IMG/VR virus record: IMGVR_UViG_3300028374_000044
Span: 1-30,814 of that record
Source: a virus
Length of the DNA: 30,814 nt
Strand: one strand, 5' to 3'
Shown here: piece after piece, positions 1 to 30,814 of the stretch
Layout of the letters: every line of letters starts with the position of its first letter
How positions within the stretch are numbered: position 1 is the stretch's first letter
The notes under the pieces: model-generated
The model's database searches: none
The model's input: the letters and a program-made list of their open reading frames with translations, nothing else
What the model was told of the DNA's origin: nothing
Made by a program: the position numbers and the translations under genes

Positions 1-330
1 AATGTAACATCTACCTATAAAGATAATGATATAGATACTAATGCTGATGGCAAAGTTGATAATGCTGATAATGCTGACTTGTTAAGTGGGAAGCGTTGGG
101 TAACAATAGCACTTGGGAATACTACGGGTGAGAGTGTTTCTGTAACTTTAAAAACTGCAGGAAGTCATGTTCATTATAATTTTTCAGTGTACTCAACTGA
201 TAATAATATTACTTATGACAATGCTAGTAGTAATTGTGCTTATATAAATAGAGGTTCTACTAATATTGATACATTAGTAATAAAAAACAGTACTGGTACC
301 GCTTACTATGAAGTTTTGTCATGGGAATAA
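1..330 (+). CDS. C-terminal part of a tail-fibre-like structural protein (5' truncated)
   Basis: The reading frame is open from the first base, so the gene starts upstream of the window and only its last 109 residues are visible. The segment begins with an Asp/Asn-rich stretch (DGKVDNADNADLLSG) of the kind common near the distal end of phage tail fibres and side-tail proteins, then a Thr/Ser/Asn-rich, beta-strand-like region ending in AYYEVLSWE. Its place directly before the endolysin and holin fits a distal tail or receptor-binding protein. An internal TTG at 79 could be misread as a start but has no ribosome binding site. Family identity is inferred from composition and position. Confidence 0.6.
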   Translation, partial: NVTSTYKDNDIDTNADGKVDNADNADLLSGKRWVTIALGNTTGESVSVTLKTAGSHVHYNFSVYSTDNNITYDNASSNCAYINRGSTNIDTLVIKNSTGTAYYEVLSWE

Positions 331-348
331 TAATAAGGAGGTGATAAA

Positions 349-537
349 ATGTATTTTTTATCAACTAATAATAATGGTGAGATAACAGGATTTCATTATA
401 ATTTAGATAAAGACACTTTGGAAGATAATGAAATAACAATTACTGAAGCAGAATATAATAATTATGTTGAAGGAGAACTGTCGCTACTAAAATATAAATA
501 TGAGAATGGAATTGTTGACAATGCTAAATTAGTATAA
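349..537 (+). CDS. Small hypothetical protein between tail fibre and endolysin
   Basis: This 62-residue acidic protein starts at ATG behind a clear AAGGAGGTG ribosome binding site, 18 bases after the tail-fibre stop. It has no membrane segment or signal peptide. It opens with MYFLSTNNNGEITGFHYNL and ends with YENGIVDNAKLV. Small proteins in this position of Gram-positive siphophages are often tail accessory or XkdX-like proteins, but I see no diagnostic motif here. Function is unknown. Confidence 0.7.
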   Translation: MYFLSTNNNGEITGFHYNLDKDTLEDNEITITEAEYNNYVEGELSLLKYKYENGIVDNAKLV

Positions 538-591
538 ATGATATATAAGATAGAAATTTTAATGAACTAATATAGTTGGAGGTGGCCATTA

Positions 592-1095
592 ATGATTTCA
601 ACTCAATCAGACAATTTCAAGTTATCAGAATGGGCAACAAATAAATACAACATGATATACCCTTGTGAACAGAAGGAACAGTTGATAGAGGGGTTAGAAC
701 TTTATAAACAAAAAATTGCAGACTTGTATCAAGTTGATATAAAAGAAGTAACAGTAATAATCACAGATGGTGATAGAGCAGGCAAAGGAACAGGATATCA
801 CTATAAAGGTTATGCTGGTGATATCTGGACAAAAATAGGATTCTTAGACAAAATATTTACAAGTGTAGAACAGATGAAGATAATTGAGAAATTGAATATT
901 TTCACAGGGAGAGGGTTGTATCCATTTAATCAAGGTTTTATCCATATTGATGTAAGAAGAGGGTTATATCCATTATCAGACAATGCTAGGATTAGTAGAT
1001 GGATAAGAAATCATGATGGTAAATATCTTGTTTATAAGAAAGATTATCAAAATAAGCCTTTCAATGGTTTGGTGTATCCTTTAGGGGAAGAGTAA
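592..1095 (+). CDS. Endolysin, peptidase M15-like (LAS metallopeptidase)
   Basis: The 167-residue product looks like a zinc peptidoglycan peptidase of the M15/LAS type, cutting peptide stems of the host wall at lysis. The visible signature is YHYKGYAGD (His-x6-Asp, two zinc ligands), followed about 45 residues later by FIHIDVR (the second His with Asp), as in peptidase M15_3 proteins. There is no signal peptide and no obvious separate wall-binding domain, so release would depend on the holin encoded 31 bases downstream. The start follows a GGAGGTGG site. The lysis assignment rests on the motif plus the holin neighbour. Confidence 0.82.
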   Translation: MISTQSDNFKLSEWATNKYNMIYPCEQKEQLIEGLELYKQKIADLYQVDIKEVTVIITDGDRAGKGTGYHYKGYAGDIWTKIGFLDKIFTSVEQMKIIEKLNIFTGRGLYPFNQGFIHIDVRRGLYPLSDNARISRWIRNHDGKYLVYKKDYQNKPFNGLVYPLGEE

Positions 1096-1126
1096 GAGAT
1101 ATTCAAAAATATAAGGAGGTTGGATA

Positions 1127-1591
1127 ATGGATTTAACTAATTTTGGGTTGCAAGTTTTAGCTGGTTTATCGCCAATTTTAATCAGTTTAGTAATTGCACT
1201 GTTGGGATTTGGATTGAACTTTTTAAAGAAGAAGACTAAAGAAATTGATAATAATGTTATAAGAAAATCAGTATTGAGTGCAGTATCAGAAGTAGATAAA
1301 GTTGCCAAAGATGCTGTCAGAAAGACCAGTGAAACCTTCACAAAATCTTTGAAAGAAGCTAATGAGGATGGAAAATTAACACAGGATGAGGCTAGACAAG
1401 CAATAGAACAAGCTGCAAAATATATAAAAAATAATGCAAGTAATTATGCTCTTGAGGTAATTAAAAATAATATTGGTTCACTTGAATATTATTTAGAAGA
1501 TTTACTAGAAGCTAAATTAGTTGAAATGAAAGATGGACAAGTAATAACAGAAATAAAAGGAATATCAAACCCAAACTTATCAAGTCAATAA
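1127..1591 (+). CDS. Holin, LL-H type
   Basis: The 154-residue product has one hydrophobic segment at about residues 7-28 (LQVLAGLSPILISLVIALLG), then KKK and a long charged helical region containing EANEDGKLTQDEARQAIEQA. That arrangement of an N-terminal membrane helix, a basic patch and a 'DGKLT..EA' helix is typical of LL-H family phage holins, which permeabilise the membrane so the endolysin reaches the wall. The gene follows the endolysin with an AAGGAGG site. The last codons include a C CCA AAC heptamer that may shift ribosomes into a 50-codon extension ending at 1728 (separate entry). The zero-frame stop gives a family-like length. Confidence 0.8.
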   Translation: MDLTNFGLQVLAGLSPILISLVIALLGFGLNFLKKKTKEIDNNVIRKSVLSAVSEVDKVAKDAVRKTSETFTKSLKEANEDGKLTQDEARQAIEQAAKYIKNNASNYALEVIKNNIGSLEYYLEDLLEAKLVEMKDGQVITEIKGISNPNLSSQ

Positions 1592-1728
1592 AGGTAGGTG
1601 GTATAGAAGCTGGAGTCAATAAAGATGGAGTAGCAGTAAAATATCAAAATGGGAATTTGAATGCTGCTATTTCTAAAGATTGGGATAAAGAAATTAGAGC
1701 TGGCTTTATGTATGAAATAAAATTTTAG
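1570..1728 (+). other. Candidate -1 programmed frameshift site and holin extension
   Basis: Bases 1570-1576 read C CCA AAC in the holin frame, a textbook X XXY YYZ slippery heptamer, five codons before the zero-frame stop. Slipping back one base continues into an open frame of 50 codons (starting CTT ATC AAG) that ends with TAG at 1726-1728. The extension contains VGGIEAGVNKDGVAVKYQNG, alternates polar and hydrophobic residues, and ends EIRAGFMYEIKF. It has no ATG, GTG or TTG near its start; the first TTG is at its middle. The stop touches the first base of the terminator stem, so the transcript seems built around this longer frame. I see no clear downstream pseudoknot. An ancestral frameshift mutation is the main alternative. 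The fused product would have 200 residues. Confidence 0.5.
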
Positions 1729-1757
1729 GAGAGGAGAAATCCTTTCCTTTTTTTTTC
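1728..1757 (+). terminator. Intrinsic terminator of the lysis/late operon
   Basis: GGAGAGGA (1728-1735) pairs with TCCTTTCC (1740-1747) in an 8-bp stem with one G-U pair and a GAAA loop, followed by a run of nine T residues. It closes the tail/lysis transcription unit. The stem begins on the last base of the TAG that ends the -1 extension of the holin. Confidence 0.88.
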
Positions 1758-1788
1758 TTTAAAATTAATTAAAGTTTTTTCTAAAAAT

Positions 1789-1820
1789 CCCTTTACTTTT
1801 TATCATTTGTATATTATACT
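1789..1820 (+). promoter_or_regulatory. Sigma-A-like early promoter P1
   Basis: TTTACT (1792-1797) and TATACT (1815-1820) are separated by exactly 17 bases, directly after the late terminator and before the first early genes. The 14-base string CCCTTTACTTTTTA at 1789-1802 recurs identically in the promoter at 2447-2478, which supports a real shared element. It would drive the 12-codon leader and the genes at 1913 and 2131. Confidence 0.75.
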
Positions 1821-2499: not shown

Positions 2500-4284
2500 G
2501 TGTTAATTATTGCTAAATATAAAGGAAAATCAAAAATAGGATTAGATGCAAGAAAGCTAAAAGATGGTACTATTAAAAAGAAGGGAATTGGAATTAAATC
2601 ACCTTATTCTCACAAAGAGCTTTGTAAAAAAGTTAAAAATAAATTTGGTGGGAAATGGAAACCAAAAAAGAAAATGTGGTCTTATCCATTAGAAATTGAA
2701 GTGGTAGATTATGCTACTGAAATTTGGAGCAAAAAAGGGTTCACTTTAGAAAAGAGTGGAATACTAAAAGAATGGTATGAAAAAAGAAAAATAGAAAGAG
2801 AGAATTTACTAATTAATAAAGATAGAGAAGAAGTTAGACCAGAGGAATTAGACACTGAATTAGCAAATACACTTTATGATTTTCAAAGAGTTGGTGTAAA
2901 TTTCCTAACAGAAACCAAAGGTGCTATTTTAGGTTTTGATATGGGACTTGGGAAAACCATTACCAGTTTAGCAGTTTCAGATATAATTAATGCTAGCAAG
3001 GTTTTAATAGTCTGTCCTGCCTCACTTAAGTATAATTGGGCAGAGGAAATAGAGAAGTGGCTGCCAAATAAAAAATATTCAATATTAGATGGTAGCAAAA
3101 AGAAAAGGATTAAGGCACTTAATTCTGATGTTGATTTTTACATTACTAATTATGCAAGTCTTAGAGAGAAAAGCAGAGTTAAGGTAAATGGCAATTGGAT
3201 TAAAATTGATAATGAGCTTTTTAAAGAAATTAACAAGCAGAACTTTGACATTGGAATTTATGATGAAATTCATAGGGCAAAAAACAGGAAAAGTCAACAA
3301 ACTAAAGCTCTGTATAAGATTGCTAATGGCATAGATAGAAATTACTTATTAACTGGCACTCCAATTATAAATACTCCAGAGGATTTATGGTCATTACTTC
3401 ACATAATAGATAGAAATAAATTCAGTAGCTTTTGGAGGTTTATTCACAGATATTGTGAAGTTTGGAATAATGGATTTGGTAAAGAAATTGGTAGTGCTAA
3501 AAATCCTAAAGAGTTTAGGAAAATGCTAAAGCCTTATATGCTAAGAAGGCTTAAGGAAGAAGTTATAGAAGATATGCCAAAATTAACTAAACAAAAACAA
3601 TGGGTAGAGTTAGAAGGTGAACAAAATAAAATTTACCATCAGATGGAAGAAAATATGATAGCAGAACTTTCTGAACAAGAAGAAATAAAAGCACCTATTA
3701 TTATTTCTAAAATTATGAGATTAAAACAAATTTCTGTTAGTGAACAATTATTAGCAGAAAAACCTTCTCTTAAAAAATTTAAGAAGTCTGCTAAAATTAA
3801 AGTTTTAAATGAGATTATAGATGATTCAGGTGACCAAAAATTAGTAGTCTTTACCCAATTCCAAAAATCAGCAAAGCTACTTGCTAAACTGTTAGATAAG
3901 CAGAAAATAGGGTATGGAATAATACATGGTGGTGTTAAGACTGAACAAAGGCAAAAAGAAGTTAATAAATTTCAGAATAATAAAGATTGTAAAGTTTTCA
4001 TTGCTACAATTAAAACTGGTGGATTAGGATTAACATTAACTGCTGGTAGTATAGCTGTTTTCTTAGACAAAGACTGGACTACTGCTAATAATAATCAAGC
4101 TGTTGATAGGTTGCACAGAATTGGTCAAGAGAAAAATGTTACAGTTATAGAATTGTTAGCTAAAGATAGTATAGAAGAATACATTGAAAAATTATTAGCT
4201 GAAAAGCAAAAAACTTTTGACTCTTTGATAGAAGGAAAAATAACACCAAAAGAAATTTTATTGAATCTGAAAGGAAGTAATTAA
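2500..4284 (+). CDS. SNF2-family DNA translocase/helicase
   Basis: This 594-residue superfamily 2 ATPase probably remodels or anneals DNA during phage replication or recombination. Visible motifs in order are: an N-terminal HARP-like patch (GGKWKPKKKMWSYP, about 50-63), Walker A GFDMGLGKT (145-153), DEIH (255-258), LLTGTP (283-288), the helicase C half with VVFTQFQKSAKLL, GGLGLTLTAGS, and motif VI RLHRIGQ (537-543). This order is that of SMARCAL1/SNF2-type enzymes. The start is uncertain: the GTG at 2500 overlaps its own AAGGAGGTG site, too close to use well, while ATT at 2509 has ideal spacing and gives 591 residues. It is the first gene after promoter P2 and overlaps the next gene by one base. 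Confidence 0.9.
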   Translation: MLIIAKYKGKSKIGLDARKLKDGTIKKKGIGIKSPYSHKELCKKVKNKFGGKWKPKKKMWSYPLEIEVVDYATEIWSKKGFTLEKSGILKEWYEKRKIERENLLINKDREEVRPEELDTELANTLYDFQRVGVNFLTETKGAILGFDMGLGKTITSLAVSDIINASKVLIVCPASLKYNWAEEIEKWLPNKKYSILDGSKKKRIKALNSDVDFYITNYASLREKSRVKVNGNWIKIDNELFKEINKQNFDIGIYDEIHRAKNRKSQQTKALYKIANGIDRNYLLTGTPIINTPEDLWSLLHIIDRNKFSSFWRFIHRYCEVWNNGFGKEIGSAKNPKEFRKMLKPYMLRRLKEEVIEDMPKLTKQKQWVELEGEQNKIYHQMEENMIAELSEQEEIKAPIIISKIMRLKQISVSEQLLAEKPSLKKFKKSAKIKVLNEIIDDSGDQKLVVFTQFQKSAKLLAKLLDKQKIGYGIIHGGVKTEQRQKEVNKFQNNKDCKVFIATIKTGGLGLTLTAGSIAVFLDKDWTTANNNQAVDRLHRIGQEKNVTVIELLAKDSIEEYIEKLLAEKQKTFDSLIEGKITPKEILLNLKGSN

Positions 4285-9344: not shown

Positions 9345-9350
9345 ACAAAA

Positions 9351-9581
9351 ATGTTTAACATTGCTGAAGAAACGATTGAACAAATGAAAAACAGACCGAC
9401 ACTAAAGGGAGTAGAAGATAGATTAAATTTAATGAGCGATAAACAGTGTTTGCGATATTTAGAAAAAATAATTAAAGAGGCAAATGCCATGAATTATTGC
9501 TATGGAAGTGGATTTGAGATGTTGCAAGCAACTCTTATGCACGCTGAGAAAGTTATAGAGAATAATATGGAGGAGGAATAA
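9351..9581 (+). CDS. Small hypothetical protein, duplicated family (copy 1)
   Basis: The start is ATG 9351, placed behind GTAGGGGAGGAACAAAA; an in-frame ATG at 9321 lies in the repeat and lacks a site. The 76-residue helical product is clearly related to the gene at 11595: both share the pattern MSxKQCLxYLEKxIKEANAM and end NNMEEE. The conserved Cys and the fixed C terminus suggest a selected function, but I recognise no family. Confidence 0.68.
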   Translation: MFNIAEETIEQMKNRPTLKGVEDRLNLMSDKQCLRYLEKIIKEANAMNYCYGSGFEMLQATLMHAEKVIENNMEEE

Positions 9582-9584
9582 AGT

Positions 9585-11589: not shown

Positions 11590-11594
11590 TAAAA

Positions 11595-11834
11595 ATGTTT
11601 GACATGGATGAAGAAGTAATTGAAATAGTGGGAAATGCACCAACACCAAAGGAAGTAGAAAATATAGTAAAATCAATGAGTAATAAACAGTGTTTACAAT
11701 ATTTAGAAAAAGCAATCAAAGAAGCAAATGCAATGAACCATGGTTTAATGTGCTCAGAAAATGAATTCCTGATATTGCAGGCAGTTCTTATATATGTGAA
11801 AACAGTTGTCAAGAATAATATGGAGGAGGAATAA
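11595..11834 (+). CDS. Small hypothetical protein, duplicated family (copy 2)
   Basis: The start is ATG 11595 behind ATGGAGGGTGATAAAA, giving 79 residues. It is a diverged copy of the gene at 9351 with shared MSNKQCLQYLEKAIKEANAM and the same NNMEEE end. The middle differs by a few inserted residues. An all-helical fold is likely. Function unknown. Confidence 0.68.
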   Translation: MFDMDEEVIEIVGNAPTPKEVENIVKSMSNKQCLQYLEKAIKEANAMNHGLMCSENEFLILQAVLIYVKTVVKNNMEEE

Positions 11835-11836
11835 AA

Positions 11837-13500: not shown

Positions 13501-13892
13501 CTACTAAATCAAAATTAAGAGGACATGATATAGAGTGTATAAATGGAGAATGGATATATTGTGATAATAAGAAACCAACAGCAGGTAATTATCAAGATAG
13601 GCCATGTGGGTTCTGTGGAAGACATTCTACTGAAGATGGTCATGATGATTGTTTAGGAACTCTGCCAGGAGTAATGAATGCTTGTTGTGGTCATGGGGAT
13701 ATTAGAGATGTTTATGTACAATTTCTTGATGGATTTAGTGTTTATAGAGATGATGCAATAGTTATTCAAAATATACTAAAAAAATATCGAGAACAAGAAA
13801 TGGTTAATGAAAAGAGAAAAAAGGAGAATGATAAAATGCATCCAGATGTATTGCAAAAGATACCAGCTGCAATGAAAGTTCTGAAACAATGA
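13497..13892 (+). CDS. Phage Cys/His-rich protein (PCGFCG...CCGHG type)
   Basis: The 131-residue protein opens LRGHDIECINGEWIYCD, then RPCGFCGRHSTEDGHDDC, then LGTLPGVMNACCGHGD and VYVQFLDG. This Cys/His spacing is a conserved phage pattern seen in many Gram-positive phages and probably binds zinc. The last 40 residues are a helical Lys/Glu-rich tail with no match that I know. It has a GGAGG site. No established function. Confidence 0.75.
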   Translation: MTTKSKLRGHDIECINGEWIYCDNKKPTAGNYQDRPCGFCGRHSTEDGHDDCLGTLPGVMNACCGHGDIRDVYVQFLDGFSVYRDDAIVIQNILKKYREQEMVNEKRKKENDKMHPDVLQKIPAAMKVLKQ

Positions 13893-13930
13893 GATATAGT
13901 AAAAATTATTTAAAATAATTTGAATTAAAA

Positions 13931-13961
13931 AAGGATTTTTGATTTCAATATAGAATATACT
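13931..13961 (+). promoter_or_regulatory. Promoter-like element, second class (copy 1)
   Basis: AAGGATTTT and TATACTATATAG lie with AGGATT (13932-13937) 18 bases before TATACT (13956-13961). A matching pair occurs at 19580-19610 with the same 18-base distance and TATAGTATATAG. Both lie in gaps between gene groups. The -35-like part differs from the P1/P2 promoters, so a modified or activator-dependent polymerase may be used. Confidence 0.5.
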
Positions 13962-13980
13962 ATATAGGGGTGAGAATAAA

Positions 13981-14136
13981 ATGTTTAGGGTTGAGAGAAG
14001 AAGAAAGGTAAGAGAAAAGGCAAAAGATTTCTTATGTGGTGAATTTAACAAAGAGAATTGTCCAAAATTAAGTAGACAGGAAAGAAAAAAGTTAGCTAAA
14101 CAAAAGGCAAAGGAGGTGATTAATAAATGGATGTAG
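13981..14136 (+). CDS. Small basic protein
   Basis: This 51-residue frame starts at ATG behind AGGGGTGAG, 20 bases after the promoter-like element, and overlaps the ATPase gene by ten bases. It is very basic (VERRRKVREKAKDFLCGEFN, then ERKKLAKQKAKEV) with two Cys. It could bind nucleic acid. It carries the AAGGAGGTG site of the next gene. Confidence 0.62.
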   Translation: MFRVERRRKVREKAKDFLCGEFNKENCPKLSRQERKKLAKQKAKEVINKWM

Positions 14137-14846
14137 AAAAGGAAATGCATGATATGGAAGAAAACTTTTCAGATATGAAACCTACTTTTGCAATCTATGG
14201 AGATGTTGGTGTTGGTAAAACTACCTTTACTTCTTATGCTCCTAATTCACTTTTAATAGATGCAGAAGGAGGTAGAGCCAGTATAGCTAAAACTCCTAAT
14301 AGTCCAAAAATACTTGAACCAGAAAACCTTTCAGATTTGGGTGAAATTTATTTATGGCTTAAGGCTAATCAAGATAAATTTGATTCAGTTATTATTGATA
14401 CTCTATCTGAAGTAGAGAAATGGGCTGTTGAAGAAAGTATTCAAAAGGCTGTTAAAAAAGACCCAACTAAGGATAAAGATTTAGCCACTAGGTCAGATTA
14501 CAAAAAAGGTGGCACAAAGGTAGGCAGGGTAGCTAGAATGTTTAGAAACTTGGACATGTATACATTCTTTCTACTACATGAAAGAAGTGATAAAGATGAC
14601 AGTACAGGTGCAGTTAAACTTGGCCCAAAAGTAATGCCTTCTGTTATGTCTGATTTAAATGGATTTACTGACATTATTTTCTATATTGAAGTGGATGATA
14701 GTGGTAATAGAAAGATTAGAACTTCACCTAATAGAAAAATAAGAGCTAAACACAGAATAGGCGAGCTACCAAATGTTATTGACTTGGGAACTGAATTTAA
14801 GGACTTTAGAATTGACACAGTCTTAGAAATGATTAATAACTCTTAA
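14127..14846 (+). CDS. Sak4-like RecA-fold recombination ATPase
   Basis: The 239-residue protein has Walker A GDVGVGKTT near residues 26-34, LLIDAEGGRAS just after it, and Walker B FDSVIIDTLSEVEKW near 87-101. A helix-rich part with TFFLLHERSDKDD and a final beta region complete it. This is the AAA_24/Sak4 pattern of phage single-strand annealing or recombinase ATPases. It acts beside an SSB-like protein, which is encoded next, as in many phages where Sak4 needs its cognate SSB. Confidence 0.85.
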   Translation: MDVEKEMHDMEENFSDMKPTFAIYGDVGVGKTTFTSYAPNSLLIDAEGGRASIAKTPNSPKILEPENLSDLGEIYLWLKANQDKFDSVIIDTLSEVEKWAVEESIQKAVKKDPTKDKDLATRSDYKKGGTKVGRVARMFRNLDMYTFFLLHERSDKDDSTGAVKLGPKVMPSVMSDLNGFTDIIFYIEVDDSGNRKIRTSPNRKIRAKHRIGELPNVIDLGTEFKDFRIDTVLEMINNS

Positions 14847-15603: not shown

Positions 15604-15957
15604 ATGTTTATAAAATTTGATGATATATACTGTTCAAATACAATAGATTATAGTTATGACAGAGGATTAAGTTTGCCAAAGGAGTTAATAGAGTCCTTGA
15701 AATATAGTAGTAAACCTTTTGAGGAAGATAGCATAGTTTATATTGAAAAAGATTATGTAGCTTATGCAAGTTTGAAAGTACAAAAAGTTGTTGTAAAAGG
15801 TGGTGTTGAAGTAGAGATAGCTGATATTAGGTGTAAAGAATACTACAATGAACCACTAACTGATAGGGAAATACAAGATTTAGAGAAAATAAGTGAAGGC
15901 ATTAAGTACATTCAAGAAAAAACTAAATATACTAAAGAGTGTGGTGAAACTAGTTGA
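15604..15957 (+). CDS. Hypothetical protein before the primase-helicase
   Basis: A 117-residue protein starting behind AAAGGAGGAATTAA, just after the structured terminator. The centre (YIEKDYVAYASLKVQKVVVKG) is beta-rich and the C terminus helical and Lys-rich. It overlaps the primase start by four bases. No family recognised; its tight coupling suggests a partner role in replication, but this is inference. Confidence 0.65.
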   Translation: MFIKFDDIYCSNTIDYSYDRGLSLPKELIESLKYSSKPFEEDSIVYIEKDYVAYASLKVQKVVVKGGVEVEIADIRCKEYYNEPLTDREIQDLEKISEGIKYIQEKTKYTKECGETS

Positions 15958-18833
15958 AATTCAAACCTATTTATGAAGATATATTAGACAAAAAATTGCC
16001 TGAACCAAATGACAGTCAAGAAATGAAAATTACCTGTCCTTTTCACGAAGATAATAACCCAAGTTTTTCAATTAATAATGAAATAGGTAGTTTTCACTGT
16101 TTTAATCCTCAATGTGGTGCTTCTGGTGGTATTGTTCAATTTGTTAAAAGAATTAAAGATAAAACTAAATATGAGGCAGAGCAATGGTTGGAAGAAAACT
16201 ATGGGGAAGAATTAAAGTTAAATGAAGTTAATAAAAATAAGAAAAAAGAAAAGCCAAAACAACCTGCTATAAGTGAAACAGAAGTTAGAAAGTGGAATAC
16301 AATCCTTAAAAATTCTAATAAGATATTAAATTTCTTATTGAATGAGAGAGGCATAAATAAAGAAACAATAGACAAGTATCAAATTGGATGGGATGGAAGT
16401 AGAATAACTATTCCAGTCAGAGCAGAAGATGGTAAAATTAGGAATGTAAGAAAATATAAACCCAATAGTAATTCCAGTGAAAGTAAACTAATTAGTTATG
16501 GGAAAGGATATGGTAGTGCAAGATTATATCCATATGAAAATTTAGTTTATGATAAAGTTTTATTGGTAGAAGGTGAAATGGATGCAATTTTGGCTAATCA
16601 ATTAGATTATAAAGCTATAACTGTTACTGGAGGGGCTGGAACTTGGAAAACTAAATGGAATGAATTATTTGAGGATAAGGTAGTCTATATAACTTATGAT
16701 ATAGATGATGCTGGTCAAACTGGAGCAGAAAAGGTAGCAAGGCTATTACTACCAAAAGCACAAGAAGTTAAAATAGTAAATCTACCAATCAACAAACCAA
16801 AAAATGGAGATATAACTGATTATTTTGTAAGATTTGGACACACTAGAGAAGAACTTGATAGTATTATAGAAAATACTGAACCATTTAGTGTTGATGAAAT
16901 AAATGAAATTCCTTCTGATGATAAAATTTATGATGTTCATTTATCTAATGCTAGCAAAAGCAAATATTATTTTAAAAAGGTAAGAATGAATACTGTAATT
17001 GCTGGAAAAGATTTAGCACCATATATCATTCCCAGAAAGGTAAAAACAACTTGCACTATGGATGCTGGTAAAAAATGCAATTTTTGCCCTATGAGATTAA
17101 GTAGTGGTGAGAAAGAATATATTTTTGATTCAAATGATGCTGGAATTTTAGAATTAATTATGTGTTCAAAAACTCAGCAAAAAGGGATTTTAAGAGAAAG
17201 ATTGGGAATACCAAAAGGTTGCTACTCTCACAATATAACAGTAATAGATGCTCAAAATGTAGAAGAAGTAATGATGATGCCTGAACTTGACTTTAGTTCA
17301 GAAGAAAGAGAGTATGTTATAAGGAGGGGCTTTTATGTAGGGCATGGTTTAAAACCAAATACTTCTTATGAAGTAACAGGAGTAACAGTTCCAGAACCAT
17401 GGAAACAATACACTACTCACCTTATAAATGAGGCAGAGCCTTCTCAAGATAATATAAGTAATTTTAAAATGACTGAAGAAAAGAAAGAAAAACTTAAGAT
17501 TTTTCAACCTTCTAAAGAACAAACAGTAGAAGATAAATTTGATGAAATAGCTACTGATTTAACTCACAATGTAACTCATATTTATGGTAGAGAAGATTTA
17601 ATCAAAACAGTTGATTTAGTCTACCATTCAGTGTTAGCTTTTGATTTTCAAAATCAGAGGATTAATAGAGGTTGGGTAGAAGCATTGATTTTAGGTGATA
17701 CTAGAACTGGAAAATCAGAAACTGCACATCAAATAATGAGGCATTATAAATTAGGAGAATTAGTTACAGGTGAGAATACTAGTTTTGCAGGTCTTATAGG
17801 AGGTATGCAGCAAACTCAAAATAGATGGTCTATTACTTGGGGTAAAATTCCTTTGAATGATAGAAGATTAGTAGTATTAGATGAAGCAAGTGGATTAAGT
17901 GAAGAAGACATTGGTTATATGTCTGGAGTTAGAAGTTCAGGTGTAGCTGAAATTACTAAAATCCAAACAGAAAAGACCCATGCTAGAACTAGATTGTTAT
18001 GGATTTCTAATAGTAGAGATGGTAGAAGTCTTAAGGAATATGGATATGGAATTTGGGCTATTAAAAAATTAATAGATAAGAGTGAGGATATAGCTAGATT
18101 TGAATTTGCTGTAGCTTGTGCTAGTGAAGATGTTCCTATGTGTGAAATAAATAAGAAGATGGAATTGCATGGTAAAGTTAAACATCAATACACTTTTGAT
18201 TTGTCTAAAGATTTAATTCTATGGTCTTGGAGTAGAACTCCAGAACAAATAAAATTTACAGATGATGCTATTGATAGAATATTAGAATTAGCTACTAAGA
18301 TGGGAAAACAATATAGCTCTAAAATTCCATTGGTAGAAGGTGCTAACCAAAGAATTAAACTTGCTAGATTAGCTATATCAGCAGCAGCAAGAACTTTCTC
18401 AACAGATAAAACTGGTGAAAAAATAATAGTCAAAGAAGGGCATGCTCAGTTTGCTCATGATTTTATAGATAGACAATATAAGAAATCAAAGATGGGCTAT
18501 TGGGATTATTCTGAGCAACAAAATGAGGCAGAAAAAACTGCTATAAATAAAAAAGATGATGTACTTCTCTATCTTAATAATAATACTGATTTAGGTGATT
18601 TATTTTTACAATATGATTATATAAGGAAATCAGATATTGAATATATAGCAGACATGGAAAAAGACCAAGTTAAAAATACAATTAAATTCCTTTCTAAAAA
18701 TAGAATGGTAAGAAAAGTTAGTAGAGGGTTTAAGAAAACTCCAGCTTTTAGCAAAATTCTAAAAAATTGGAAGGGAAATAGAAGAGAAAAGAGAAAGAAA
18801 GAAGAAGAAGGTGATGCTACTAATGAAGAATAA
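15954..18833 (+). CDS. Primase fused to MCM-like AAA+ helicase
   Basis: The 959-residue protein starts at TTG behind GTGTGGTG. Near residues 28-54 a CPFH...FHCFNPQC zinc finger of DnaG/gp4 type is seen. A basal domain and Toprim motifs follow (LVEGEMDAI at 204-212; ITYDIDDAG at 246-254). The second half is an AAA+ ATPase: Walker A LGDTRTGKSET near 579-588, Walker B RRLVVLDEASG near 638, a WISNSRDGR sensor near 682, and further helical parts, resembling prophage MCM-like helicases. A second Cys cluster (TCTMDAGKKCNFC) lies between the halves. It would unwind DNA and lay primers at the fork. Confidence 0.85.
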   Translation: MKFKPIYEDILDKKLPEPNDSQEMKITCPFHEDNNPSFSINNEIGSFHCFNPQCGASGGIVQFVKRIKDKTKYEAEQWLEENYGEELKLNEVNKNKKKEKPKQPAISETEVRKWNTILKNSNKILNFLLNERGINKETIDKYQIGWDGSRITIPVRAEDGKIRNVRKYKPNSNSSESKLISYGKGYGSARLYPYENLVYDKVLLVEGEMDAILANQLDYKAITVTGGAGTWKTKWNELFEDKVVYITYDIDDAGQTGAEKVARLLLPKAQEVKIVNLPINKPKNGDITDYFVRFGHTREELDSIIENTEPFSVDEINEIPSDDKIYDVHLSNASKSKYYFKKVRMNTVIAGKDLAPYIIPRKVKTTCTMDAGKKCNFCPMRLSSGEKEYIFDSNDAGILELIMCSKTQQKGILRERLGIPKGCYSHNITVIDAQNVEEVMMMPELDFSSEEREYVIRRGFYVGHGLKPNTSYEVTGVTVPEPWKQYTTHLINEAEPSQDNISNFKMTEEKKEKLKIFQPSKEQTVEDKFDEIATDLTHNVTHIYGREDLIKTVDLVYHSVLAFDFQNQRINRGWVEALILGDTRTGKSETAHQIMRHYKLGELVTGENTSFAGLIGGMQQTQNRWSITWGKIPLNDRRLVVLDEASGLSEEDIGYMSGVRSSGVAEITKIQTEKTHARTRLLWISNSRDGRSLKEYGYGIWAIKKLIDKSEDIARFEFAVACASEDVPMCEINKKMELHGKVKHQYTFDLSKDLILWSWSRTPEQIKFTDDAIDRILELATKMGKQYSSKIPLVEGANQRIKLARLAISAAARTFSTDKTGEKIIVKEGHAQFAHDFIDRQYKKSKMGYWDYSEQQNEAEKTAINKKDDVLLYLNNNTDLGDLFLQYDYIRKSDIEYIADMEKDQVKNTIKFLSKNRMVRKVSRGFKKTPAFSKILKNWKGNRREKRKKEEEGDATNEE

Positions 18834-19572
18834 AATAGCTATATTAGGAAATGGAATATCTGGTACACTTGCTGCTAAGGCTTTAAAGGATAGTGGTAAT
18901 GAAGAATTTGATATAATAAGTAAAGATAGTAATATCCCAAAAGTCAGAGGATTTTTCTTGTTACATGATAGTTGTAACTTTGATGGGATTGAAAAAGTAA
19001 GTTTTAAAGTTGAACAACTTGGTAGAGAAGAAGTTTATAAAAAGAAGTTGTCTTATAATGGTGAGGTTTCATCATCTTGGAAAAATGGTCTTGAAAGTTA
19101 TTTTATGGTAGGATATAATCCTTATCCTTCCATAGTTCAAGAATGGCACAGCAATAGACATAGGATAGTAGAATATGAATTAGTTCCAGAAGATTTTGAT
19201 TTGTTATTCTATGATTATGATTGGGTGATAAGTACAATACCACCTAATAATCTATTTAAAAGTGCTGAATTAAAATATTCTAAAATATGGATTAAAGACA
19301 AACCTGCTGATGATAATGGTTATTATGCTAAGTATTTTGGAACTGATGATACAGATAAAATTAGAGAAAGTCAACTTTGGGGTAGAAAATCAATTGAATA
19401 TTCTATTGAAAAAGAAGGTTCAGCAATATGTATAAAACCTATTAAGGCTAAAAATTTACCAAAAGATGATAGGTTAACTTTAGCTGGTAGAAAAGGCAAA
19501 TGGAATAAGAATATTTTAGCTCACCAAGTTTACTACCAAATATTAGATGAGATTAATTTAAGAAATTTGTAA
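18823..19572 (+). CDS. Rossmann-fold FAD/NAD-dependent oxidoreductase-like protein
   Basis: Starting at ATG 18823, the 249-residue product opens with KIAILGNGISGTLAAKAL, a Gly-x-Gly-x2-Gly dinucleotide-binding loop. Later DYDWVISTIPPNNL resembles the second conserved strand of FAD-dependent enzymes such as UDP-galactopyranose mutase and amine oxidases, and LAGRKGKWNKNILAHQVYYQ is near the C terminus. In those families this last part sits beside the flavin. Its substrate is unknown. The gene overlaps the primase end by 11 bases, so it belongs to the replication operon. Alternative GTG/ATG starts at 18811 and 18814 would add four or three residues. Confidence 0.62.
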   Translation: MKNKIAILGNGISGTLAAKALKDSGNEEFDIISKDSNIPKVRGFFLLHDSCNFDGIEKVSFKVEQLGREEVYKKKLSYNGEVSSSWKNGLESYFMVGYNPYPSIVQEWHSNRHRIVEYELVPEDFDLLFYDYDWVISTIPPNNLFKSAELKYSKIWIKDKPADDNGYYAKYFGTDDTDKIRESQLWGRKSIEYSIEKEGSAICIKPIKAKNLPKDDRLTLAGRKGKWNKNILAHQVYYQILDEINLRNL

Positions 19573-19579
19573 ATAAAAG

Positions 19580-19610
19580 AAGGATTTTAATGAGTTATCT
19601 ATAATATAGT
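19580..19610 (+). promoter_or_regulatory. Promoter-like element, second class (copy 2)
   Basis: AGGATT (19581-19586) and TATAGT (19605-19610) are 18 bases apart, in the 79-base gap before the nucleotide-enzyme fusion. The element matches the one at 13931-13961 in both blocks and spacing. It is followed by AGAGGGTAG and, later, the GGAGGTGATTAA site of the gene. Confidence 0.5.
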
Positions 19611-19651
19611 ATATAGAGGGTAGCAAAAATTTATAGTTAGGAGGTGATTAA

Positions 19652-20917: not shown

Positions 20918-23900
20918 TTGGACTATGTAAACATTCATGTGCATAGTGAGTTCAGTCTCCTTGATGGCATGATTTCTCCAGAAGAAATAATAAACTATGC
21001 TAAAGAGAACAACCAAAAGGCAATAGCTATAACTGACCATGGGAAAATGGGAGGATTTTTTAAACTATTAAAACATGGTAAAGAACAAGGTGTAAAACCA
21101 TTAATTGGAGTAGAAGTCTATATGGTTAAGGATATAAATTTTCAGCAAAATAGAAAAAAAGGTGAAAAGGAACAAAGATACCATTTAACTCTAATAGCTA
21201 AGAATAAAAAGGGAATGCAAGACTTATTCCAATTAACTTCTAAATCACACACAGAAGGATTCTATTATAGACCCAGAGTTAATAAGGAAATGATAGATGA
21301 ATTTAGTGATAATCTTATAGTAATGACAGGTTGCATAGCAGGTGTTATTCCTCAATTATTAATTAATGGAAAGTATAAATTAGCTAAAAAACAAGCTATT
21401 GAATTTAACAATAATTATAAAGACTTCTATATGGAAATGCAACCTAATAGCTTAGATGAACAAAAAGAAGTTAATAGAGGTCTTGTGAAATTACACAATG
21501 ATACAGATATTCCTTTAGTAGCTACTACTGATGCTCACTATTTAAAAGAACAGCAAGAAAGCCACAAAGTTCTACTTGGTATAAATAGTGGTGGAAATAT
21601 GTGGGAATTTGATGATGATACTTTTCATTTAATGACTGGCAATGAAATATTTAAACTGTTTAAGAAAAATCACCCATTTCTATCAGATAAAATAATAAGA
21701 GGTGCTATAAAAAATACAATAGGAATAGCAGATAAATGTGATTGGTTAGAAAATGAAAGAATGGGTGATACTTTACCTAATCCTTACCCAGAACTTGAAG
21801 ATAAAGAAGAAGAATATGAATTTTTAGAAGAATTGTGTGAAAAGGGTTGGGAAGAAAAGAATATGCTTGATAAGAAAAATCTACCAGAATATCAAGAAAG
21901 GTTAGGAAGAGAACTAAAACAAATTAAAGAATTGGGCTTTGTTAGATACTTCCTTTTAGTCAATGATTTATATGAGAATTTCGTAAAACCAAATGACCTA
22001 ATGTATGGAACTGGTAGAGGTAGTTCAGCTGGCAGTTTAGTTTGTTGTTTATTAGATATAACTACACCAGACCCAATTAAGTATGGATTAATGTTTGAAA
22101 GATTTATCTCACCTAATAGAATTCATGAGCCTGATGTTGATATGGATTTTGAGGATAAAAGAAGGGGTGAAGTTAAAGAATACTTTATTGAAAAGTATGG
22201 TAGAGAATATGTAGCTGATATTGGAACTTATGGAACTATGAAAGGTAAACAGGTTTTGAGAGATGTTAGCAGGGTTTATGGTATTCCTAAAAATGAAGTA
22301 GATAAGATTAGTAATTTCATTATCCAAAGAAGTGGTGGTGATGCTAGAGCCAGTAATACCATAGAAGATACATTTCAAGAGTTTGATGAGTGTAAAAAAT
22401 TTGATAAAAGATATCCAAAAGTATTAAAACATGCTAAAAATTTAGAAAGTAGAGTAAGACATGCTGGAACTCATGCTGCTGGAGTTATTATTTCTAATGT
22501 TAAACTAATAGAACACACTCCTTTAGAGGTAAGGGGAGGACAAAATGGGAATATAACTACTGCTTTGGATTGGAGAGAAACTGATAAGCAGGGTTTTCTA
22601 AAGATGGATGTGTTAGGGCTTAGAACTCTATCTGTAATAAAAGATACAATAGACCAATTAGAACTGACAAAAGAAGATTATGAAAAATATGATATTGATT
22701 TAGAATTTCCAAAAGATAAGGAAAAAGTTCCTATGAAAAGAAAGCACTTAGTTCATGTAAATTATAATGACAAAAGAGTTTTAGATGAATTTAGAGCTGG
22801 AGATACAGAAGGTGTATTTCAATTTAACTCTGTAGGTATGTCTGATATTTTAAAAGAAATGAAGGTTGAAGGATTTGAGGATTTAGTGTCTTTAAATTCA
22901 CTTTATAGACCTGGAGGAATGCGTTGTATCACTGGGGATACAAAGGTTCAGAAAGGGAAAAATGGAAATGTAATCTATAAAAAAATAAAAGATGTTTATG
23001 ATGATTGGAAGAGTGCTAATGATTTAGGCAAAAGTATGAAAAAAGTTGCATCTTTAAACCTTGAAACTGGTAGATTAGAAAACACTAGATTGCTAAATAT
23101 TGAATATTCAGGAAAGAAAGAAGTTTATAGCTTAAAGTGCCTTCACTATGATGGTGTTATTAAGGCATCTGAAAATCATAAGTTCCTTTGTTGCAATAAA
23201 AATAATAAATATGAGTGGAAGAAAATGAAGGACATTAAACCTGGAGAATATGTAGCAGTAAAGGCTTGGGAAAACTTGTGTTTTGTTTGTCCTAATCACT
23301 ATAGAAAAATTGAATTTGTTAAAGTTAGAGAAAAATTTTATGAAGGGGTTGAGGACACTTATGATATGGAAGTAGCTAAAAATCATAACTTCTTAGCAGG
23401 AGGCTTCATTGTTCACAATAGTGGCATAACTAGAGATTATATAGAAAGAAAAAATGGTGAACAAAAAATTGAAAAAGTCAATCCTATCTATGATAAAATA
23501 ACTGAAGATACACAAGGACTTATAGTTTTTCAAGAGCAAGTTATGAAAATTTTTTCTGATATGGCTAATAGAAATGCTATTGAGGTTCATAGAATGAGAG
23601 AAAAGGTAGCTAAATCTCATGGACTGCAATCTATGCAAGATGAAAAAAAAGGTTTTATTGAAGGTTGCAAAGAAAATGATATTGGTGAAGAATTTGCTGA
23701 AGAATTATTCCAAAAGATAGCTCACTTTGGTTCATATGCTTTTAATAAATCTCACGCCATAGTTTACACCCAAATAGCTTATTGGACACAATGGTTGAAG
23801 ACATTTTATCCATTAGAGTTTTATGTATCAAGTTTAAATAATGAAAATAATGATGATAAAGTCAGAAGGCTACTTGGTGCACTTGAAAAGAAAGGCTACA

Positions 23901-24634
23901 AGTTATTATTGCCTCACATTAATAAATCAAAAGAAGGTTTTACAGTAGAAAAATGGAATGGAGAAAAGGCTATGAGGTTTGGCTTAAGATACACTAAGGG
24001 TATTGGAAAAACTACTGCCAGTGAAATAGTCAAACACCAACCATATGAAAATGAAGAAGATGTCAAGACTAGAAAAGGAATAAAGAGGAGAACTTTTCAT
24101 AAAGGGATTAGAAGACTTTTAAAAGAAGTTGATGCTTGGAAAGATGATGATGAATATACTCAAGAGGAACTTGAAGGTTTAAGAGAGTTTTTAGCAGCAG
24201 AAGAATTGTTACCACTTCCAGTATTAGGCAAAAATATTAAAAAGGCTAGAAATTTAGCCAAGCATTATAATGTAAATTTGACTGATGTTAATGATTTAGA
24301 TTTTAGCCATAATGATTTTGTTTATCTTTGTGGAGTATTTAATGGTGTTAATTATGCTAGAGTTGGAGATTTTGGGCCACCTTCTAAATATAGTAAATGG
24401 GAAGTTGGAGATAGATATGCAATGATGGATTTGCAAGATGGAACAGCCCATATGAGAGTTAAATTCAACCCTAAGAAATACCAGGAATATAAGGATGATT
24501 TGAGAATAGGTCAAAAGGTATTGATTCACAGTAGAATACTGAAAGATATTAAAATGGTATTTATTGATTTCATGGTAGTATTGAGTGAAGAAAAAATAAA
24601 AGAACACCAAGAAAAATATGGAGAGGATGATTAA
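20918..24634 (+). CDS. dnaE: DNA polymerase III alpha subunit (DnaE type), intein-interrupted
   Basis: The 1238-residue precursor starts at TTG behind AGGGGG. It has the PHP domain (HVHSEFSLLDGM near 7-18, ITDHGKMGGFF, TDAHYL) and the catalytic Asp pair in EPDVDMDFED near 404-413. The RPGG...SGITRDYIERKNG segment, the polymerase thumb/fingers and a C-terminal OB-like part (VGDRYAMMDLQDG) are also present. Residues 670-834 form a mini-intein (separate entry), so the spliced enzyme has 1073 residues, normal for DnaE. It would copy the phage genome with the primase-helicase at 15954. It retains PHP metal-type His/Asp residues. Confidence 0.92.
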   Translation: MDYVNIHVHSEFSLLDGMISPEEIINYAKENNQKAIAITDHGKMGGFFKLLKHGKEQGVKPLIGVEVYMVKDINFQQNRKKGEKEQRYHLTLIAKNKKGMQDLFQLTSKSHTEGFYYRPRVNKEMIDEFSDNLIVMTGCIAGVIPQLLINGKYKLAKKQAIEFNNNYKDFYMEMQPNSLDEQKEVNRGLVKLHNDTDIPLVATTDAHYLKEQQESHKVLLGINSGGNMWEFDDDTFHLMTGNEIFKLFKKNHPFLSDKIIRGAIKNTIGIADKCDWLENERMGDTLPNPYPELEDKEEEYEFLEELCEKGWEEKNMLDKKNLPEYQERLGRELKQIKELGFVRYFLLVNDLYENFVKPNDLMYGTGRGSSAGSLVCCLLDITTPDPIKYGLMFERFISPNRIHEPDVDMDFEDKRRGEVKEYFIEKYGREYVADIGTYGTMKGKQVLRDVSRVYGIPKNEVDKISNFIIQRSGGDARASNTIEDTFQEFDECKKFDKRYPKVLKHAKNLESRVRHAGTHAAGVIISNVKLIEHTPLEVRGGQNGNITTALDWRETDKQGFLKMDVLGLRTLSVIKDTIDQLELTKEDYEKYDIDLEFPKDKEKVPMKRKHLVHVNYNDKRVLDEFRAGDTEGVFQFNSVGMSDILKEMKVEGFEDLVSLNSLYRPGGMRCITGDTKVQKGKNGNVIYKKIKDVYDDWKSANDLGKSMKKVASLNLETGRLENTRLLNIEYSGKKEVYSLKCLHYDGVIKASENHKFLCCNKNNKYEWKKMKDIKPGEYVAVKAWENLCFVCPNHYRKIEFVKVREKFYEGVEDTYDMEVAKNHNFLAGGFIVHNSGITRDYIERKNGEQKIEKVNPIYDKITEDTQGLIVFQEQVMKIFSDMANRNAIEVHRMREKVAKSHGLQSMQDEKKGFIEGCKENDIGEEFAEELFQKIAHFGSYAFNKSHAIVYTQIAYWTQWLKTFYPLEFYVSSLNNENNDDKVRRLLGALEKKGYKLLLPHINKSKEGFTVEKWNGEKAMRFGLRYTKGIGKTTASEIVKHQPYENEEDVKTRKGIKRRTFHKGIRRLLKEVDAWKDDDEYTQEELEGLREFLAAEELLPLPVLGKNIKKARNLAKHYNVNLTDVNDLDFSHNDFVYLCGVFNGVNYARVGDFGPPSKYSKWEVGDRYAMMDLQDGTAHMRVKFNPKKYQEYKDDLRIGQKVLIHSRILKDIKMVFIDFMVVLSEEKIKEHQEKYGEDD
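22925..23419 (+). mobile_element. Mini-intein (165 residues) in DnaE, no homing endonuclease
   Basis: The insert runs from a Cys (CITGDTKV, block A) to HNFLAGGFIVHN, with the required His-Asn end and Ser as the first residue of the following extein. A block-B-like SENHKFLCC lies in the middle. It splits RPGGMR from SGITRDY in the active-centre region of the polymerase. At 165 residues it is a minimal splicing domain with no LAGLIDADG endonuclease part. Its coding DNA is in frame and in the phage's base composition, so it is probably long-established. All splicing residues visible to me look intact. Confidence 0.9.
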
Positions 24635-26625: not shown

Positions 26626-27411
26626 GTGAAAGTAACATTAATAAGTTGGCCAAATAATCCATTAAAGGCAATTCATTGTGCTGTTGAAAATATGAATGGA
26701 AATATGATACATGACATGAATAGTATAACTAAAGATGAGGCATTAGTTACACTAAAAGAATTAAAGAAAACTAAGTTAAATGGGGCATTGGAATTTGGCG
26801 GAGATTATATATTCCAGATAGAAGGTGTTCCAAGAGCCTTCACTCATCAGATAGTAAGGAATAGAGTTGGTGCCAGTTATTCTCAAGAAAGCATGAGGTT
26901 TGCTGCTAAAACTGGGGAAAACTTCAGTTATTCTACTGGTAGTTCTGTTAATGATGAAGAACAGAAAAGGGCTTTTGAGAGGGCTATGAAAGATGCCCAA
27001 TTTAATTATGAGAATTTATTAAATATGGGTGTGGAAAACCAAGATGCAAGAGGGGCTTTGCCTATTAATACCAATACAAAAATTGGTGTTAGATTTAATC
27101 TCATGACTTTAGTTAAAATAGCAGAGGTCAGGTTATGTCACCAGTCCCAAGGACACTGGAGAGAAGTAGTGGAAGAAATGAAAAGAGAAATTGGTGAGAA
27201 AGTAAATCCAGAGATAGCAAGTTTATTAGTTAAAATTTGTGATAGAACTGGGAAGTGTGAATTCAAATCATTATTTGATAGGGAATGTTTTATTGAAAAG
27301 CAATTGGTTAAAGATGTTTGTGACAATTGTGGAGAAAAGGATATTTGTTTAGTTAAAGCAGAAGGGGACTATTGTAATGCCATTCAAAAATTCATGCTGA
27401 AGGAGGAGTAA
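26626..27411 (+). CDS. thyX: Flavin-dependent thymidylate synthase ThyX
   Basis: The 261-residue protein starts at GTG behind AAAGGGGTGATATAA and follows the ThyX plan, converting dUMP to dTMP with methylene-tetrahydrofolate and FAD. The signature region reads THQIVRNRVGASYSQESMRF near residues 73-92. The usual RHR is RNR here (78-80), and the following segment resembles that of phage ThyX enzymes. GVRFNLMTLVKIAEVRLC... is near 148-168. Unusually, a Cys cluster (CDNCGEKDIC and further Cys) forms a C-terminal extension that may bind metal. It is the thymidylate supply for replication, next to ribonucleotide reductase and the fused nucleotide hydrolase. Confidence 0.85.
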   Translation: MKVTLISWPNNPLKAIHCAVENMNGNMIHDMNSITKDEALVTLKELKKTKLNGALEFGGDYIFQIEGVPRAFTHQIVRNRVGASYSQESMRFAAKTGENFSYSTGSSVNDEEQKRAFERAMKDAQFNYENLLNMGVENQDARGALPINTNTKIGVRFNLMTLVKIAEVRLCHQSQGHWREVVEEMKREIGEKVNPEIASLLVKICDRTGKCEFKSLFDRECFIEKQLVKDVCDNCGEKDICLVKAEGDYCNAIQKFMLKEE

Positions 27412-28586: not shown

Positions 28587-28632
28587 GTAAATATTTACTA
28601 TAAAACAAATTAATAATAGAGGGGATTGGATA

Positions 28633-28878
28633 ATGATGGATAAAGAAGAAAGAGAAGTACACGAACGACTTGCTAAAAAAATGAATAATTATAAAGAAAT
28701 TTTAAAAGAGAAAGGTATTGAAGATGATTTAGCTAAGAAAATGGTAAGAGATTACCACAAATCATTGATGCAATCTATTATGGCTAAACAACAGATGGAA
28801 GAATTTGAAAAGGGTTTTCAATCTGCCTTTCAAGGTGATAGTATGCATGAAATGGATTTGAGTGATTTAGATGCTTAA
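28633..28878 (+). CDS. Small coiled-coil protein
   Basis: An 81-residue charged helical protein with an acidic end (MHEMDLSDLDA), starting at one of two adjacent ATG codons (28633 or 28636) behind AGAGGGG. It overlaps the HD-domain gene by eight bases. It contains the segment KKMNNYKEILKEKGIEDDLA. Function unknown. Confidence 0.62.
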   Translation: MMDKEEREVHERLAKKMNNYKEILKEKGIEDDLAKKMVRDYHKSLMQSIMAKQQMEEFEKGFQSAFQGDSMHEMDLSDLDA

Positions 28879-29431
28879 TAAGGGTAAATTGAATTTATGT
28901 TTAAATTGGATTAGAGATGATAAAATAATGGAATGGACTAAGGATTGGTTGCAAGACCAAACACCAGATTATTTTTGGGAAATTCCAGCTAGTTCTACTG
29001 GAAAATATCATCCAAATTATACTACTAAAAAAGGAGGGTTAGTTCTTCATACTAAAGCTGTTTTCCAGATAGCTTTAGACCAATTGGATAATAAAGTTTG
29101 GAGTTTTGATAAGAAAGAAAGAGACATAATACTTTCAGCAATTTTATTACACGATACAAGAAAATTAGGCATACCAAAAGAAAAGTATACAGTTTCAAAT
29201 CATGCAGTATTAGTAGCTGATGCTATTAGAAAAGAGTGTAAGTCAGGAAGTGTTAGAGCTAGAATTGCTGATGCAATTTCTACTCATATGGGGCAATGGA
29301 ATAAAGACTTTAAAACTGATGAAACAATTGCACCACTACCTTCTACTGAATTACAGTTCTTTGTTCACCTTTGTGATTATTTAGCAAGCAGAAAATATAT
29401 GGAAATTAATTGGGAAAGGGTGAAAGTTTAA
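28871..29431 (+). CDS. HD-domain phosphohydrolase
   Basis: The 186-residue protein has the HD-superfamily order: GGLVLHTKAVF (first His, about residue 61), AILLHDTRKLG (His-Asp pair, about 96-97), SNHAVLVAD (His) and STHMGQWNK. CDYLASRK lies near the end. HD enzymes hydrolyse nucleotide phosphodiesters or phosphomonoesters. The layout also recalls the HD domain of YhaM-type 3'-5' exonucleases, whose N-terminal OB part is absent. Next to RNR it is likely a nucleotide hydrolase; the substrate is inferred. Confidence 0.78.
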   Translation: MLNKGKLNLCLNWIRDDKIMEWTKDWLQDQTPDYFWEIPASSTGKYHPNYTTKKGGLVLHTKAVFQIALDQLDNKVWSFDKKERDIILSAILLHDTRKLGIPKEKYTVSNHAVLVADAIRKECKSGSVRARIADAISTHMGQWNKDFKTDETIAPLPSTELQFFVHLCDYLASRKYMEINWERVKV

Positions 29432-29434
29432 TAA

Positions 29435-30814
29435 ATGGAAATTGTAAAAAGAGATGGTAAAAAAGTTGATTATAAGAAGGAGAAAATATTCATAGCAATT
29501 GAGAAGGTCTTTAATGAGGTAAATGGGAATGGGTATTATGGTGATATGGTAAGTGAGTTAACAGATAAAGTAGAGGTTAAAATAAAGAATTTAGATATGC
29601 CACATGTGGAAGAAATTCAAGATGTAGTAGAGGATGTATTAATTGAAGAAGGGTATAAAAATCTTGCTAAGGCTTATATAAAATATAGAGAAGAACATGC
29701 TCAAAAGAGAAAAGAATGGTTAAAAAGTGAATTAGCACTTTCTATTTGGATGAGAAAATACCAGTTTGAAAGTGAATCATTTGAAGTATTTTTTAACAGG
29801 GTAGCAAAGGGCAATGAGAAAATTAAAAGCCTGATTAAGAGCAAGAAGTTTATGTATGCAGGCAGAATATTAGCTAATAGAGGGCTTAAAGAACATGGAA
29901 TTAATGTCACTTATTCTAATTGTTATGTAACTTCTCCACCAGAAGATGATTTAGAAAGTATTAATAATAGTGCTTACAGTTTAGAAAGAACATTCAGCTA
30001 TGGTGGTGGCTCAGGATTGGACATTAGTAAGCTAAGACCAAGAGGTGCTAAAGTTAATAATGCAGCTAAAACTACCAGTGGTGCTGTTAGTTTTATTGAT
30101 AAATTTGACATTTCTAGTAAGATAATTGGACAGAAAGGCAGAAGGGCTGCACTAATGATTTCACTAAGTTGTGAACATCCTGATGTAGAAGAATTCATTG
30201 AGAAAAAATTAGATTTAAATGCAGTTAATAAAGCTAATATTAGTGTAAGATTAACAAACAAATTTTTAAAAGCAGCAGAAAAAGAGGAACCACTACCCAT
30301 AGAATTTAAGGTAAAAGATACAAGTGAAATAATCACTAAAAAACTAGATGCAGATAAATTGCTAAATAAATTAGCTTATGGCAATTGGTACTCTGGTGAA
30401 CCTGGTGCTTTATTTTGGGATAGAATTGAAGATTACAATTTATTAAATGAACATCCAGATTTTGAATATGCTGGCACTAATCCTTGTGGAGAGGAGCCGT
30501 TGCCAGCAGGTGGAAGTTGTTTATTGGGGGCAATTAATTTATCAGAGTTTGTAGAAAATAAATTTACAGAAAATGCTAAATTCAACTATAATGAGTTTAT
30601 CAATACAGTAGAAATAGCTGTGGAAGGGCTTAATGAAGTTCTGGATGAAGGGTTGCCACTACACCCATTAAAAGAACAAAGAGATAGTGTAGAAAAATGG
30701 AGACAGATTGGCTTAGGTATAATGGGTTTAGGCAGTATGTTTATTAAGTTAGGTGTAAAATATGGAAGTCAAGAGTCAATAAAATTGATAGAGAGAATTG
30801 GAATAGAAATGTCT
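29435..30814 (+). CDS. nrdJ: Class II (B12-dependent) ribonucleotide reductase, 3' truncated
   Basis: 460 codons are open to the window end. The N-terminal ATP-cone-like region (VKRDGKKVDYKKEKIFIAIE) is followed by the catalytic barrel: SNCYVTSPPEDDLESI, SYGGGSGLDISKLRPRGAKV, TTSGAVSFIDKFD and NPCGEEPLPAGGSCLLGAIN with the Asn-Pro-Cys-Gly-Glu radical-cysteine site. 'NCYV..PPEDDLESI' and the 'SGAVSF' segment are typical of the adenosylcobalamin-dependent class. It converts ribonucleotides to deoxyribonucleotides, feeding ThyX and the polymerase. Coenzyme B12 must come from the host. The C-terminal redox cysteines lie beyond the window. Confidence 0.88.
   Translation, partial: MEIVKRDGKKVDYKKEKIFIAIEKVFNEVNGNGYYGDMVSELTDKVEVKIKNLDMPHVEEIQDVVEDVLIEEGYKNLAKAYIKYREEHAQKRKEWLKSELALSIWMRKYQFESESFEVFFNRVAKGNEKIKSLIKSKKFMYAGRILANRGLKEHGINVTYSNCYVTSPPEDDLESINNSAYSLERTFSYGGGSGLDISKLRPRGAKVNNAAKTTSGAVSFIDKFDISSKIIGQKGRRAALMISLSCEHPDVEEFIEKKLDLNAVNKANISVRLTNKFLKAAEKEEPLPIEFKVKDTSEIITKKLDADKLLNKLAYGNWYSGEPGALFWDRIEDYNLLNEHPDFEYAGTNPCGEEPLPAGGSCLLGAINLSEFVENKFTENAKFNYNEFINTVEIAVEGLNEVLDEGLPLHPLKEQRDSVEKWRQIGLGIMGLGSMFIKLGVKYGSQESIKLIERIGIEMS

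Follow-up and report, generated by a model that had tools for sequence, protein, structure and literature searches.

The 30,814-bp stretch of DNA analysed here (the window; IMG/VR virus record IMGVR_UViG_3300028374_000044, positions 1 to 30,814) is a fragment of a tailed phage that contains no GATC, no GGACC or GGTCC (GGWCC) and no AAGCTT, and in which GANTC is ~2.5-fold depleted. The best explanation, which we hold with considerable confidence, is that the phage has been under lasting selection from Type II restriction enzymes in its hosts; these would have several specificities, and one would cut GATC.

Gene content of the window

Nearly all window genes lie on the + strand and comprise the end of the tail region, a putative lysis module, an SNF2 helicase, a RecB-like nuclease, a RusA resolvase, an AAA_24 ATPase, a primase-MCM helicase, an intein-bearing DnaE polymerase, ThyX, an HD-domain protein and a ribonucleotide reductase (RNR). 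The principal features, with identities to the related records G001 and G003, are:

592-1095, + strand, endolysin-like protein (weak match to PHROG endolysin)
1127-1591, holin-like ORF (Pfam holin LLH, score below cut-off)
2500-4284, + strand, SNF2-family helicase (G001 and G003 homologues 86% identical)
14127-14846, + strand, AAA_24 ATPase belonging to the recombination module (homologue present in G001; used in the codon comparison)
15954-18833, + strand, primase with CHC2 zinc-finger and Toprim domains, joined to an MCM-type P-loop helicase (G001 homologue 91% identical)
20918-24634, + strand, intein-containing DnaE-type DNA polymerase III alpha (Pfam DNA_pol3_alpha, PHP, Intein_splicing)
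26626-27411, + strand, ThyX thymidylate synthase of nucleotide metabolism (Pfam Thy1)
29435-30814, + strand, large subunit of ribonucleotide reductase, truncated at the window end (Pfam Ribonuc_red_lgC, ATP-cone)

The endolysin-like protein and the holin-like ORF probably mark the lysis module. The DnaE-type polymerase identifies the replicon as phage, and its Intein_splicing domain lies at residues ~688-834; ThyX is an ordinary thymidylate synthase, and the primase-MCM fusion has distant homologues in Microbacterium phages (35%). Structural genes of the close relative G001 resemble those of Firmicutes myophages. Among the window proteins scanned, no methyltransferase or hypermodification gene and no DpnII-family or other recognisable restriction gene was recognised, and no integrase was found among the proteins assigned; since the records are fragments, a methyltransferase could lie outside them.

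The strand is very asymmetric in composition (A 40.6%, T 29.0%, G 20.4%, C 10.1%; GC skew 0.34), as is that of a sister phage, L057 (GC skew 0.33). A small ORF is duplicated at 9347-9582 and 11591-11835, ~2.2 kb apart and with 73-79% nucleotide identity, giving paralogous small proteins. AT-rich elements ~70-80 bp long (AAGGATTTT ... TATA-like), common to the window and G001, lie upstream of genes (window 13905-13983 and 19551-19619; L009 11375-11456; L010 391-475) and are possibly a phage promoter or regulatory motif.

Absence of GATC and codon choice

From the trinucleotide composition of the window 55.1 GATC are expected and none is present (Poisson P(0) ~1e-24); across 300 second-order simulations the count averaged 55 and was at least 35. 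The first-pass annotation had reported the absence by eye, together with a GC content of ~31% and several dozen sites predicted by composition; the recount also gave 0, the measured GC content is 30.5%, and the count is thus not near the model frequency. Nor are the other 4-base palindromes equally depleted: most occur at 0.8-1.0 of expectation, CTAG (54/96; site counts here and below are observed/expected) and GTAC (37/52) are mildly low, and those containing CpG, with expectations <7, are too rare to judge. When codons were shuffled synonymously with the proteins kept, 46.2 +/- 4.8 GATC were obtained (minimum 35; observed 0), and by the palindrome table, the simulations and this shuffle the loss of GATC is specific to the motif. 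At the site-elimination threshold (observed/expected <0.1, expectation >15), GATC is eliminated both in the window (0/55) and in G001 (3/74).

Selection against GATC is visible at the codon level. The ratio GAT:GAC in window Asp codons depends on the next base (A 215:48, C 0:24, G 179:2, T 129:28): GAT, described in the annotation as the preferred codon, is used in 523 of 601 cases before bases other than C, and GAC in 24 of 24 before C (Fisher p ~1e-20). GACC was found at or within a few bases of all 16 positions at which the annotation had placed a GAC-coded Asp. Asn and Tyr before C still favour the T-ending codon (AAT:AAC 47:19, TAT:TAC 35:15), so a following C does not by itself account for the use of GAC. 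After a G-ending codon, Ile is never ATC (0 of 121, vs 42 of 624 elsewhere), and after NGA, Ser is never TCN (0 of 15, vs 254 of 488 elsewhere). Together, the Asp, Ile and Ser patterns indicate that all three reading frames have been cleared of GATC by synonymous choice.

Other missing sites and the phage clade

Relatives were sought in viral contigs with DnaE, ThyX, RNR, primase and SNF2 queries; the first three gave distant matches or none, and the primase and SNF2 queries recovered G001 and G003, which are the same phage. G001 (43 kb) is the nearest relative, with ~84% nucleotide identity to the window in aligned parts and roughly 78-88% across shared regions, and has GATC 3/74, GGWCC 0/21 and AAGCTT 1/34. 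Its three residual GATC are at 13856 (between two ORFs), 23166 (in a tail-spike-like ORF) and 28946 (in an ORF for which no counterpart was found in the window), and a single GGTCC occurs in one stretch present only in G003. The terminase large subunit of G001 (L008 2185-3647) and of G003 is read as two overlapping ORFs, possibly owing to a frameshift or sequencing error.

In a scan of 579 palindromic patterns over the window plus G001, GATC (3/129) ranks first by z, and GGWCC (0/34) and AAGCTT (1/50) are the remaining words of similar completeness when words containing GATC or AAGCTT and patterns of low expectation are set aside. Maximum-order model expectations for the same two records are 32 for GGWCC and 17 for AAGCTT. 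By location, GGWCC is 0/13 in the window and 0/21 in G001, and AAGCTT is 0/15.8 in the window under the order-2 model, an expectation that depends on the model (16 vs 6). GANTC is 68/165 in the window plus G001. The first-pass annotation had named GATC alone; that loss stands, but at least three sites have been eliminated, and the depletion of GGWCC, AAGCTT and GANTC had been missed. These words are classical Type II specificities: GATC of DpnII, Sau3AI and MboI, GGWCC of AvaII, AAGCTT of HindIII and GANTC of HinfI.

A single depleted degenerate motif, GRWYC, was rejected, as most of its depletion is contributed by words containing GATC and by GGWCC and GANTC words. Depletion of CTAG and GTAC and scarcity of CpG were not taken as evidence of restriction; CTAG is low also in several phages with normal GATC. 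The partial depletion of GANTC, CTAG and GTAC may have other causes.

The absence of GATC has been maintained since the window and G001 diverged. In an ~11.4 kb alignment of the two (~84% identity) neither has a GATC, vs 13 expected via single substitutions, a calculation based on rates of single-base substitution that takes no account of CpG effects, which makes CpG-containing palindromes poor controls; AATT, ATAT, TTAA, AGCT and TATA turn over freely in the same alignment. At both shared Asp codons where C follows only in G001, G001 has GAC and the window GAT; in the AAA_24 ATPase gene, near 14652, GAC in G001 replaces GAT of the window where the next base in G001 is C. TGCA is depleted in G001 (L008-L010; 53/124) and not in the window (99/111), and in aligned DNA 18 TGCA are window-only vs 1 G001-only (sign test p = 8e-5). 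This contrast indicates that avoidance also has a lineage-specific component, and it suggests that TGCA avoidance in the G001 lineage is recent and specific to that lineage.

The portal protein of G001, used as query, retrieved 54 viral and 27 genomic loci. In the three nearest portal lineages, G001/G003, L055 (85% identity) and L056 (63%), GATC is 3/74, 0/8 and 1/26, GGWCC is 0/21, 0/3 and 0/10, and AAGCTT is 1/34, 0/4 and 0/11, respectively. The next lineages, L057 and L058-L066 (47-49% identity, similar GC), have normal site counts (for L057, GATC 67/71, GGWCC 11/8 and AAGCTT 19/16). Depletion thus tracks phage lineage, with one clade without the sites and normal sister clades, and the portal tree needs one change for the loss, which arose once in the clade and has been maintained since. 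The window has no portal gene, so its placement in this clade rests on its nucleotide identity to G001 in shared regions.

Proposed host enzymes, alternative explanations and known systems

Portal and capsid proteins of G001 resemble those of Listeria phage B054 and Lactobacillus phage LBR48 at 34-38%, and the nearest cellular relatives of the portal are in Bacilli prophages (~40-44% identity); no closer portal-encoding prophage was found in genomic contigs or in 398 genomes of one phylum. These similarities suggest Firmicutes as the host phylum and do not indicate a genus. In the phylum of the Bacilli genome with the related prophage, DpnII-family enzymes scored above cut-off in 20 of 398 genomes (5%), which makes exposure to GATC restriction in that phylum plausible.

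Under selection by such enzymes, a new GATC, GGWCC or AAGCTT would make the genome cleavable in restricting hosts, and mutants carrying one would be lost. Over time every site would be removed, mostly through synonymous changes, and site-free incoming DNA would be invisible to those enzymes, with a phage methyltransferase or modified base unneeded. The agent would be a GATC cutter of the DpnII/Sau3AI/MboI type (or the DpnI type), accompanied by AvaII-like, HindIII-like and perhaps HinfI-like enzymes, which may all reside in one host or be spread across several. Escape from host GATC-cutting restriction, as proposed in the first-pass annotation, is supported by the motif specificity, the synonymous codons and the sharing of the loss across the clade, and further by the normal sister clades and by the fact that other sites typical of Type II enzymes have gone as well; the GATC-cutting enzyme of the host we infer.

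That enzyme might instead be a DpnI-like cutter of methylated GATC, or the host population might be polymorphic for DpnI and DpnII, an alternative to a plain DpnII/Sau3AI/MboI enzyme that is improbable but carries some weight. Loss of GATC escapes DpnI-like and DpnII-like cutters alike, and the data fit cleavage of methylated (DpnI type) and unmethylated (DpnII/Sau3AI type) sites equally. GATC is under-represented in 46 of 46 phages whose hosts encode a methyl-directed enzyme (PMC6286503), and Streptococcus populations alternate DpnI and DpnII cassettes (PMC12707154). Against this, the words lost alongside GATC, GGWCC and AAGCTT, are classical Type II cleavage sites, which makes ordinary restriction-modification simpler, and DpnII-family genes do occur in the 5% of sampled genomes noted above.

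Avoidance through Dam methylation with methyl-directed mismatch repair, or a related function of Dam, is very unlikely: it would leave GGWCC and AAGCTT in place, and MutH/Dam-directed repair is a gammaproteobacterial feature, a range outside the Firmicutes, the phylum indicated by the portal and capsid of G001. The precedent for it is phiX174, which is without GATC, an absence that has been linked to mismatch repair (PMC5014478). Equally hard to sustain is a GATC-cutting nuclease made by the phage, which would destroy host DNA and spare its own site-free genome. Such an enzyme would also select against GATC, and many small window ORFs are without assignment; however, none of the nuclease-like window proteins (a RecB-like PDDEXK_1 protein, an RNase H-like protein and the RusA resolvase) is known to be GATC-specific, no DpnII domain was found in six related virus records, and the loss of GGWCC and AAGCTT would be left unexplained. 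An accident of composition (low GC, strand asymmetry or biased mutation) or of technique (a library or assembly artefact such as contigs cut at GATC) can practically be dismissed, for although strand asymmetry is strong (A 41%, C 10%; GC skew 0.34), trinucleotide-preserving simulations and codon shuffles still yield at least 35 GATC, L057 has normal GATC at similar GC and skew, and independently assembled relatives show the same losses with a few residual sites.

Restriction-site elimination by phages was already known, and the window leaves the understanding of restriction or anti-restriction unchanged; what is new is this clear phage case with at least three sites lost jointly. It is a clear-cut instance from nature of elimination driven by restriction, in which the codons supply proof, sister phages serve as control and several sites are lost in combination. 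The set of missing sites predicts restriction enzymes of the hosts and could be of use in assigning uncultured phages to their hosts. More tentatively, the way in which GATC, GGWCC and AAGCTT have disappeared jointly across the clade, and GANTC and, in one lineage only, TGCA have disappeared in part, might be a readable record of the combined Type II repertoire met, stable since the portal proteins diverged to ~63% identity and predictive of host range.

Elimination of Type II sites has been reported in about a tenth of viral genomes, most strongly in non-temperate dsDNA phages, and GATC ranks with the sites whose avoidance is most consistent (Rusinov et al., 2018, PMC6286503). As in those cases, the sites lost here are short and palindromic, with observed/expected <0.1 at expectation >15; unlike them, at least three are lost jointly across a clade. 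The Staphylococcus podovirus phiAGO1.3 has 2 GATC and no GGNCC, which its authors match to Sau3A and Sau96I (PMC6346686). It resembles the window in the near-absence of GATC and the loss of a GGNCC-type site, but is a different phage, a 17.6-kb podovirus with a known host, and the window has lost GGWCC rather than all GGNCC, plus AAGCTT. Moorella phage MTATph1 (OR602862; L108, 68453-111155) likewise has GATC 0/118 in 42.7 kb, with GGWCC and AAGCTT near normal. In the phage group L015-L019, related through the SNF2 helicase at ~30%, GATC is 0/38 to 0/68, but CCWGG is absent and GGWCC is absent only in some members. As these phages are unrelated or distant, loss of GATC is convergent and recurrent. 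The set of missing sites differs from lineage to lineage, as expected if it reflects the enzymes of the hosts.
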